64,000 nucleotides of DNA, from contig NZ_REGA01000011.1 in assembly GCF_003841505.1 (NCBI RefSeq), forward strand, positions 1-64,000, written 5' to 3'. Positions within the stretch are counted from its first letter, which is position 1; each line of letters begins with the position of its first letter. Under the pieces are notes generated by a model. It was not told where the DNA came from, made no database searches, and worked only from the letters and a program-made list of their open reading frames with translations. Both the position numbers and the translations under genes were made by a program. This stretch comes from Natrarchaeobius chitinivorans (GTDB lineage Archaea > Halobacteriota > Halobacteria > Halobacteriales > Natrialbaceae). This document shows positions 45,998 through 50,151 of this stretch, one piece after another.

Positions 45998-46079
45998 ATA
46001 CGGATTACTGTAACTGTGTACCGGCGCACCCGTCGCCCGGGTCGCGGGTGCGCCGGTAATGATTTACAGTAAACCGTAT
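45998..46079 (-). repeat. Stop-anchored palindromic element, copy E (best copy)
   Basis: Arms ATACGGATTACTGTA (45998-46012) and TACAGTAAACCGTAT (46065-46079) pair at 14 of 15. Inner stem CCGGCGCACCCG/CGGGTGCGCCGG is perfect over 12 bp and uses a different sequence from copies C and G. 46079 is the last A of the HPr-kinase-like gene's TGA. Confidence 0.9.
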
Positions 46080-47020
46080 CAGCGGTCGATACGGCTCGAG
46101 TGCTCGACCGACCGTGGGTCTTCATCCCGACGAAGATCACGCGCCACCAGTTCGACGAGTTCCGGAAGTCTGTCGTGATCACGCGGCCGGGAAAGCGCCA
46201 GAAACGGCGTCTCCTCGGTTATCGTCGAACACGATCGGAAGTTGTCCGCCGTCGCCCCAGTCTCGTCGAGTAACCCGCCGGTGTAGGTTCGGGCGATCAG
46301 TTCGACGACGCGATCTCGAGGGGGAACCGGCTCGAGGGCGAGTTCGTCGCCGTCAGACAGCACGTAACACCTCGAGAGCGACACCGGATCGGCCGTCGCG
46401 TCGATCCGTTTGTATCGCTTTTCCGAATCGCCGATCTCCTCAGGCCGACTCGTCCCGTCGACGTCGAGCGCGTCGATCGCATCCGGCAACAGTCGGATCT
46501 CGGGGACGCCCGGGACGACGACCGGCCGGCCGGACTCGAGGCGGATCCCGACCAGATCGTCCTCGAGGGTCGTATACCCCAGTTCGTGGAACGCGGCTGC
46601 CGTCGTCGACTTGCCCGCACCCTGCGGTCCGAGAAAGACCGCCGCTCGGTCGTCGACGGCGACGGCGCTCGCGTGGACGACGAGTTCGCCCCGCTGGTGG
46701 AGGACGAGTCCCATGATCTCGTTCGCGAAGAGGCGTCGAACGACCTTTCTCGGCGGATCTCGTTCGGTCACCGAATCGAACAAAATCCGTCGTCCCTCTT
46801 CGACGAGAAACGAGCCGATTCCGTCGTAGGTGAGCCGACAGGCGGCCGGCTCCGCCTCGAGACGGCGGATTCCGGTTCCGGACACCGATTCCGGTACCGG
46901 ATCGACGCTTGCCCTCCGAATTTCGACGTCGACGGCCTCCGCTGGCGCTTTTGCCCTCGGGAACTCCGGGAGCGTCACTGCCGATCGAATCCTCAATCCG
47001 TACGATGAGTAGTGGTTCAT
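46079..47020 (-). CDS. HPr-kinase-like P-loop protein
   Basis: A 313-residue protein with an N-terminal domain (YGLRIRSAVTLPEFPRA, FLVEEGRRILFDS) and a kinase core. Walker A is GPQGAGKSTTAAAF and DDLVGIRLESGRPVVVPG resembles the HprK catalytic region. Such HprK-related kinases occur beside ABC exporters and nucleotidyltransferases in lasso-peptide and polysaccharide loci, where one (PadeK) phosphorylates the peptide. The gene follows the exporter on the same strand (51-base gap). Its target here is unknown. Confidence 0.85.
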   Translation of the reverse strand: MNHYSSYGLRIRSAVTLPEFPRAKAPAEAVDVEIRRASVDPVPESVSGTGIRRLEAEPAACRLTYDGIGSFLVEEGRRILFDSVTERDPPRKVVRRLFANEIMGLVLHQRGELVVHASAVAVDDRAAVFLGPQGAGKSTTAAAFHELGYTTLEDDLVGIRLESGRPVVVPGVPEIRLLPDAIDALDVDGTSRPEEIGDSEKRYKRIDATADPVSLSRCYVLSDGDELALEPVPPRDRVVELIARTYTGGLLDETGATADNFRSCSTITEETPFLALSRPRDHDRLPELVELVARDLRRDEDPRSVEHSSRIDR

Positions 47021-48934: not shown

Positions 48935-50151
48935 GGGTTTGCGTTCGTCCGGCTGGGGTTCGAGTCGGTTTCGCCTCGGCTGCGTGGTCGACGACCGATC
49001 GCCGTCCGGAGGAGGCGACCGCACCGAACGAGCGAATACAGCGGCGCGAGCGGGCGGGGCAACGAAACGGCCTCGATGTCGGGTCTCGTCGGTTCGAACA
49101 GACAGGTCGCCCAGAACGTTCCCCTGTCGCGGTATCGCTCGAGCGTACGAGACTGGAACCTCCACAGTTCGTGTTCCGGGTACGCCGAGTCGTCGAACAG
49201 GTGGTCCCGAACGTGCAATCGAAGCGGCTCGATCGCCGGGTCGGCATCGATTCGCCGTCTGACTCGCACGGGCAACTGCGTCTCGAACAGCGACGCCGTC
49301 ACCGCGAGACCGAGAAGCAACATTCGCGTGCAGTTGTGGGACTCGCTCCGGCGTATGACGGTCTCCCAGTCGATCGAGTTTCGCTCGAGATCCGCCGCGA
49401 CGTCACAGATCCAGCGGAGTCGATCCCAGCGGTGACGAGTTCCGTGGACGCAACACGAGAGCAGCCGATCCTCGGGCGAGAGGACGGGGACGTCGGTGCC
49501 GGCGATCGACGTGGTGGACCGACGGTCCCACACCGACTCCAGTTCGATCGCCGTCGGAAAGCGCCGTGCGAGCACGCGCCAGTGGAGTTCGACTTCGACT
49601 GGTTCACAGCGGTGCTCGAACGCGTAGTCGCGAGCGAACCGGGTGTACGCCCACTGCTGGCTGCTGGTAAGCCCATCCGTCGTCTCGCGAACGTACTGTG
49701 GATCGTATCCCTGCTCGAGCAGCACCGATCGTGCTGCCGGGAGATCCGTCCGCCTGACGAGAACGTCGAGATCTCCGAACTCGCGTCGCCCGACGTCTCC
49801 GTAGGCGATTCGGGCGAGTACCGGTCCGCGGTACGGAATCGCCCGGATTCCCTCGCGCTCGAACGCCTGCGAGAGCGACGCAGTCGTCTGAAGCAGTCGG
49901 AGATTTCGACGCGCGACGTACGCCGAGCGTTCCTCGAGGGTCTCGAGTGCCTCTGGAGGGACGGTTTCCTCTCGCTCATGGCGGACCGCCTCGAGGAAAA
50001 GCGGGGTGACACAGTGGCGTCGAGTGAGACGGCAAACGGTCTCCCAGTCGAGTCCGGACTCGAACCAATTCGGTCGAACCGACGTACCACGTATACCGGC
50101 CTTACAGCACCGGATGACGAACCGTTCTTCATCCCCGAACCGACGTGTCAT
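48931..50151 (-). CDS. Nucleotidyltransferase-family protein (NTP_transf_5)
   Basis: A 406-residue protein with GREFGDLDVLVRRTDL, the GxxxxxDxDxx motif of the polymerase-beta nucleotidyltransferase fold, and HCEPVEVELHWRVLARR as in the uncharacterised NTP_transf_5 family. These are often found with HprK-like kinases and ABC exporters. First gene of the three-gene operon. The ATG at 50151 fits a leaderless start after the TATA-like box TTTATAAT (about 50182-50190); a TTG 15 bases upstream is less likely. Confidence 0.85.
   Translation of the reverse strand: MTRRFGDEERFVIRCCKAGIRGTSVRPNWFESGLDWETVCRLTRRHCVTPLFLEAVRHEREETVPPEALETLEERSAYVARRNLRLLQTTASLSQAFEREGIRAIPYRGPVLARIAYGDVGRREFGDLDVLVRRTDLPAARSVLLEQGYDPQYVRETTDGLTSSQQWAYTRFARDYAFEHRCEPVEVELHWRVLARRFPTAIELESVWDRRSTTSIAGTDVPVLSPEDRLLSCCVHGTRHRWDRLRWICDVAADLERNSIDWETVIRRSESHNCTRMLLLGLAVTASLFETQLPVRVRRRIDADPAIEPLRLHVRDHLFDDSAYPEHELWRFQSRTLERYRDRGTFWATCLFEPTRPDIEAVSLPRPLAPLYSLVRCGRLLRTAIGRRPRSRGETDSNPSRTNANP

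Follow-up and report, generated by a model that had tools for sequence, protein, structure and literature searches.

A kinase, ABC exporter and nucleotidyltransferase operon of Natrarchaeobius chitinivorans as the probable tailoring and export arm of a lasso-peptide pathway split between two loci

Results

The kinase, exporter and nucleotidyltransferase operon

The window analyzed here is a 64,000-nucleotide stretch at the start of contig NZ_REGA01000011.1 (C11) of the Natrarchaeobius chitinivorans genome (G000). By ORF calling, we identified three minus-strand open reading frames read as a nucleotidyltransferase (NTase, PsmN/LppN-like, 'N'; 48931..50151, 406 aa, the first gene of the trio), an MsbA/HepA-like ABC exporter ('D'; 47072..48934, 620 aa) and an HprK-like peptide kinase ('K'; 46079..47020, 313 aa). 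The NTase and exporter genes overlap by 4 bases (48931-48934), and 51 bases (47021-47071) separate the exporter from the kinase, exactly the spacing given in the original prediction. A TATA-like element, TTTATAAT, is found about 35 bases upstream of the NTase start codon (50152..50200, minus strand), and, judged from its position, it is likely the promoter of the trio.

The NTase matched Pfam PF14907 (NTP_transf_5) with an E value of 2.4e-64 and 217.7 bits against a gathering score of 31.2. Its D-x-D motif lies in GDLD, the two Asp residues of which are kept in 33/33 aligned haloarchaeal homologues. The AlphaFold model of the NTase showed weak matches to MNT/ANT/FKRP-type nucleotidyltransferases, FKRP being a sugar-phosphate transferase. 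The exporter matched Pfam ABC_tran (E 9.5e-32) and ABC_membrane; its nearest type in NCBIfam is HepA/MsbA, and it is 69-70% identical to the exporters within the lasso clusters of congeners.

The kinase matched HprK_rel_A (E 1.8e-8) in the P-loop region only and under the curated cut-off, and it fell below the curated HprK cut-offs of both Pfam and NCBIfam, which places it outside the canonical HprK family. Its tie to HPr kinases is one of fold and motif only. The AlphaFold model (mean pLDDT 88.5) matches PEPCK and HPr kinases, and a profile built from 15 homologues retrieves HPr kinases of known structure. The motif His116, Lys137, Asp154 and Asp155 (HKDD) is invariant in 34/34 haloarchaeal homologues and aligns with the kinase of a Priestia paeninodin cluster; HKDD is required in lasso kinases (PMC9266682). 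There is a single copy of the gene in the whole genome. In the phylogenetic tree, the kinase groups with the cluster-borne kinases of haloarchaea, inside their clade, and its branch is fairly long.

A search with the kinase profile led us to 78 loci that encode kinase relatives, in haloarchaea, cyanobacteria, Chloroflexota and other groups. A precursor was present in 71 of them, in each case with the same kind of leader, B2 in 65, B1 in 64, the cyclase in 61, the ABC exporter in 59 and the NTase in 53. In Halopiger xanaduensis, a kinase ORF on plasmid pHALXA01 (L125, 9058-9900) was matched by tblastn over 95% of its length; in PLSDB, it is represented by two annotated short hypothetical proteins, one on each strand, and the kinase is thus hidden by the annotation.

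A glycan neighbourhood around the trio

The trio is flanked by a glycan neighbourhood (50331..60731). It includes a Wzx flippase gene (at 53534), two glycosyltransferase-like genes (at 54989 and 58276) and a UDP-sugar dehydrogenase-like gene (at 59331), all on the minus strand; the last three were assigned by sequence reading and synteny, being syntenic with genes of the lasso cluster in congeners. Divergent from the trio, on the plus strand, are genes for a large membrane protein without any Pfam match (50331-52292) and an ATP-grasp_ST protein of the sugar-transfer-associated type (52371-53486); this pair was not found near the congeners' lasso cluster. The association with polysaccharide loci anticipated in the original prediction is real, as in the paeninodin loci of Bacillota. 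That the trio might occur with glycan genes only and lack the kinase active-site residues is contradicted by the intact HKDD motif and by the precursors in 71/78 loci of kinase relatives.

The lasso-peptide genes on another contig

No precursor, cyclase or protease was found next to the trio in the window. This absence had been pointed out before, and it holds for the window but not for the genome: a search for asparagine-synthetase-like, transglutaminase-like and precursor partners found all of them on contig C22 (52855-55820). On its minus strand lie the genes for B1, a PqqD-like RRE (55509-55820; PF05402), the B2 protease (54954-55490; PF13471 Transglut_core3, NF033537) and the lasso cyclase C (53047-54957; PF00733, NF033535), and the precursor gene A (52855-53001) is located directly after C. 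The only strong Transglut_core3 match of the genome is this B2, beside the Asn-synthetase match.

The cyclase scored 604 bits with the NCBIfam lasso model against a cut-off of 525; its residue 2 is Ser, without the catalytic Cys2, and its S-G-G-x-D-S motif is present in 16/16 sequences. B2 scored 76 bits against 33, and its catalytic Cys and His were aligned in 27/28 (one gap) and 28/28 sequences, respectively. B1 scored 66.6 bits with PqqD against 23.4; with lasso_PqqD_Bac it scored 60, below the cut-off of 80 of that model. The precursor scored 24.2 with the lasso leader model (cut-off 19). Precursor, NTase and B2 are each encoded once in the genome, and no second HprK was found near the C22 lasso genes. 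With A, B1, B2 and C on C22 and the single-copy kinase, exporter and NTase in the window, the genome holds both halves of the proposed pathway, of which the C22 half has the cyclase, the B2 protease, the B1 RRE and a YxxPxL leader with Thr at -2.

Synteny of the two halves and the position of the break

In two congeners (G119 and G309), both halves form one cluster, in which NTase-ABC-HprK converges on precursor-C-B2-B1. The unbroken order comprises gene 61387, the UDP-sugar dehydrogenase-like gene, a GT2-like gene, a glycosyltransferase-like gene, the flippase gene, NTase-ABC-HprK, the convergent A-C-B2-B1 and five flanking genes. In N. chitinivorans, the left part of this cluster is on C11, and the right part with the five flanking genes is on C22. 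The break falls exactly where HprK and A converge, within the short stretch that separates their 3' ends, so that neither operon was damaged. The fourth member of the genus (G160) is without the system; its cupin gene and gene 61387 are about 4 kb apart, which fits the cupin side of the window.

Identity to the congeners is 56-70% for one half and 57-64% for the other, about equal divergence. The cyclase and kinase trees place the genome alike, whereas the ABC and NTase trees place it slightly differently, and the genes may therefore not share one history throughout. In the gene-neighbourhood comparison, the trio was syntenic with the lasso precursor, RRE, B2 and cyclase in congeners and in other genera. 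The analogy with paeninodin and the guess of a peptide tailoring and export system, both made in the original prediction, are supported by this synteny, with the same genes unlinked in N. chitinivorans.

At the break, a palindromic interspersed repeat of about 81 bp (45998-46088) is present at the 3' end of the kinase gene. Further copies in the window are located at 7220-7303, 20961-21044, 39563-39642, 42425-42515, 44765-44850, 56125-56203 and 63480-63566, and both this genome and that of G119 carry dozens of them. No copy was found at the C22 side of the break, which disfavours misassembly as the sole cause of the split. We favour a real rearrangement, with some doubt left by the draft assembly.

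Co-occurrence of NTase and B2 in haloarchaea

Among 391 haloarchaeal genomes, 31 encode both a full NTase and a full B2, one the NTase only, none B2 only, and 359 neither (Fisher 3.9e-45, uncorrected for kinship). The co-occurrence spans 18 genera. In 30 of the 31 carriers, the two genes are on one contig within about 26 kb; they are apart only in N. chitinivorans.

Some related loci are composed differently. In Haloarcula and relatives (L042-L052, L058), precursor, B1, B2, HprK, NTase and ABC genes are found with no cyclase within 20 kb, and the cores are short (e.g., WWDHDDGYGKWS). These loci resemble those for LPP (linear polyphosphorylated peptides) of Bacillota, yet B2 replaces the signal-peptidase-like protease. 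In locus L064 (G322:C1:1655000-1674999), B1, B2, HprK, NTase and ABC genes are accompanied by several precursor ORFs, the leaders of which are nearly identical, whereas their short cores differ greatly.

Precursor leader and the K-x5-D core

The precursor consists of the leader MMSERNSKRYEAPELTEYGTVESITQ and the core QDKVGTGDDQWSDGTPLTGSVF, separated at the predicted cut site. The leader is of the YxxPxL type, with Y-17, P-14, L-12 and T-2; the Y, P, G and T columns are invariant in 19 haloarchaeal precursors. A Lys and an Asp six positions apart (K-x5-D) were found in all 33 distinct haloarchaeal precursors of this type, against a mean of 1.76 and a maximum of 8/33 in the shuffled-sequence control. 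The distance from the leader Thr to the Lys varies: it is 4 in 14 precursors, 5 in 9, 6 in 3, 7 in 5 and 8 in 2. With the K-to-D spacing fixed and this distance variable, the putative ring Asp would be at core position 9 to 13.

To guard against circularity, precursors were chosen via the neighbouring cyclase, not via the motif; L066 and L149, chance K-x5-D matches not adjoining the main cyclase clade, are excluded from the set of 33. Beside cyclases of the N. chitinivorans type (620 bits or more), 22/22 distinct precursors have K-x5-D, whereas those beside a second haloarchaeal cyclase type (369-417 bits) are without it and mostly show the classic G1...D8 pattern. This second clade comes with its own HprK (L039 14487-17479, L041 2200-5430, L127 6862-8980), has classic G1...D8 cores (GNHFSAVDGNSGTTGNRG) and adjoins a K-x5-D system in the same locus. 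In bacterial loci, Asp is at position 9 in 70%, and K-x5-D occurs in 9/82.

The constraint on core position 1 is weak, with Q, N, T, G, S and other residues found there; Asn1 has one known precedent, the lasso peptide metanodin (PMC12670498). D9 fits a canonical ring in N. chitinivorans and most Natrialbaceae, whereas Asp ranges over positions 9-13 in the whole family; since its D9 suits the canonical ring too, the N. chitinivorans sequence by itself does not discriminate between ring readings. The core ends with GSVF, so its conserved Ser is two residues before the C-terminus rather than last, and Gly-Ser is found in the core tail of 31/33 family precursors. The masses predicted for the N. 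chitinivorans core are 2291.034 as a macrolactam, 2371.000 with an added phosphate and 2533.053 with both phosphate and a hexose.

Discussion

We propose, with a probability of about 0.87, that the trio serves for tailoring and export in a kinase-type (paeninodin-like) haloarchaeal lasso-peptide pathway, which in this genome is split into two chromosomal loci. The B1-B2-C-A operon on C22 would supply the precursor. B1 would bind the Y-x-x-P-x-L leader, B2, a Cys/His protease, would cleave directly behind the T-x pair, with T at -2, and the cyclase may adenylate an Asp and close the isopeptide ring. Before or during maturation, the kinase would phosphorylate a core Ser, most likely that of the conserved Gly-Ser near the C-terminus; the kinases described in bacteria modify a C-terminal Ser (PadeK, PsmK) or Ser3 (BsfK, LppK) (PMC9266682, PMC13381572, PMC10368454). 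The NTase may then add a hexose or a nucleotide to the phosphate, as PsmN does in the case of pseudomycoidin; in the systems covered by the same reports, PsmN-type NTases are needed for the hexose on the phosphate. LppN showed no activity in a heterologous host (PMC13381572), which makes the reaction of the NTase here uncertain. The exporter would secrete the product, whose function may be linked to a surface polysaccharide that the adjacent genes would produce. With the halves unlinked in N. chitinivorans, we infer their cooperation from the congeners. The position of the Ser, which is not last, and the kinase scores under the curated HprK cut-offs speak against this proposal.

Three other accounts of the locus have to be considered. 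The split could be a misassembly at the repeat, with one cluster in reality as in the congeners. On the C11 side, the break coincides exactly with the palindromic repeat, and the assembly is a draft of 48 contigs; nonetheless, the C22 side is without the repeat, both joins are far from the ends of their contigs (151 and 72 kb), and the cupin-61387 spacing in G160 matches the window. We consider misassembly unlikely, and it would leave the functional reading unchanged. It is even less probable that the halves decayed or lost joint regulation after the split, with the trio left as an orphan remnant: the split is unique among the 31 carriers and the kinase branch is fairly long, but reading frames and catalytic motifs are all intact, the halves have diverged from the congeners to a similar extent, and each operon appears to have a TATA-like promoter of its own. 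The least credible of the three, in our judgement, is that the trio phosphorylates, decorates and exports a neighbouring glycan or glycolipid while the C22 lasso genes work without it. Such a role would suit the HepA/MsbA-like exporter and the adjoining Wzx, glycosyltransferase-like, ATP-grasp_ST and UDP-sugar dehydrogenase-like genes. However, homologues of all three genes lie within precursor-bearing lasso-type clusters of haloarchaea and bacteria, lasso B2 is present in 31/32 genomes with a full NTase, and polysaccharide surroundings are usual for paeninodin and LPP clusters of Bacillota (PMC13381572).

As to the ring, there are three readings: a canonical ring of variable size, a leader cut at variable sites that would yield [N/D]1-K2...D8, and a bridge between Lys and Asp. 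For the last, the product would be a Lys-Asp isopeptide-bridged peptide rather than an N-terminal lasso, made by a re-purposed lasso-family cyclase. The constant K-x5-D in 33/33 precursors, with the Lys 4 to 8 residues from the leader Thr, its presence in all 22 distinct precursors adjoining the cyclase clade and the loose constraint on position 1 point in this direction, as does the report that changing a lasso ring by one residue usually lowers production (PMC13352647). Against it, the cyclase is above the curated lasso-cyclase cut-off, D9 suits a canonical ring in N. chitinivorans and most Natrialbaceae, and the variable cut site would fit too. Within the literature surveyed, a search for lasso cyclases using a lysine side chain returned nothing beyond a general review. 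We regard the bridge as a tentative possibility. It is compatible with the trio as its tailoring arm, and one may speculate, with the same reserve, about a haloarchaeal peptide class in which a lasso-family cyclase joins Lys-x5-Asp side chains and the trio phosphorylates, decorates and exports the product, here from an unlinked locus.

The lasso pathway favoured here is not categorically new, since earlier in silico work has already noted lasso clusters in haloarchaea. With Halopiger xanaduensis serving as reference, antiSMASH detected lasso-type clusters in haloarchaea, among them one comprising B1, B2 and a kinase (PMC10093198), and lassopeptide clusters are listed among archaeal RiPPs (PMC12144867); 'not described in archaea', as the original prediction put it, was too strong. 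Euryarchaeota are flagged as an underexplored source in PMC7533575 (citing Tietz 2017). Popov et al. 2026 placed the paeninodin and LPP systems within capsular polysaccharide loci and treated both as confined to Bacillota (PMC13381572). The K-x5-D core, with the accompanying cyclase clade, is what looks new. Characterised lasso peptides follow a rule other than a constant Lys-x5-Asp spacing at varying distance from the leader, and this pattern could point to new ring chemistry or a new cut-site rule. Mining the genome one cluster at a time would yield, on C22, an ordinary lasso cluster lacking kinase and exporter and, in the window, an orphan trio; it is synteny that connects them. In the literature surveyed, the coverage of which is incomplete, we found no isolated archaeal lasso peptide, and the single-copy, genetically separable gene set therefore makes the question directly testable.

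Compared with known systems, the genes are close in content to the paeninodin/pseudomycoidin-type clusters of Bacillota (PadeK, PsmK, PsmN), with which they share A, B1, B2, C, the exporter, the HKDD kinase, the NTase and polysaccharide surroundings. They differ in the archaeal host, the split loci, the leader Tyr instead of Trp, the Ser near but not at the C-terminus and the K-x5-D core with Q/N/S at position 1. The paeninodin family has a Trp-type leader and a Bacillota-restricted RRE clade (PMC13381572), and on account of the leader Tyr and the archaeal host we file the system as paeninodin-like, not as a member. The Bsf cluster of Bradymonas sediminis (BsfA, B1, B2, C, D, K, N) has the identical seven-part set and the same leader positions, Y-17, P-14 and L-12 (PMC10368454). 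The same paper gives Thr at -2 as the rule for lasso leaders in general; this holds here, whereas Bsf has Ile instead, and its phosphorylated residue is Ser3, which the core here lacks. LPP systems have in common the RRE, the HprK-like kinase, the NTP transferase, the MsbA-like exporter and the polysaccharide loci, but employ the signal-peptidase-like LppS (an SpI-type leader peptidase) and have no cyclase, whereas N. chitinivorans encodes both B2 and a lasso cyclase. The Haloarcula loci without a cyclase come nearer to LPP, but with B2 as the protease. Metanodin, a lasso peptide from a soil metagenome, starts its ring with Asn, a residue also predicted at this position in many haloarchaeal cores; metanodin is proteobacterial, with the expected ring spacing and without a K-x5-D of shifting register. 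On pHALXA01 of Halopiger xanaduensis, orthologues of the NTase, HprK, cyclase, B2, PqqD and ABC genes and a K-x5-D precursor form an intact single cluster.
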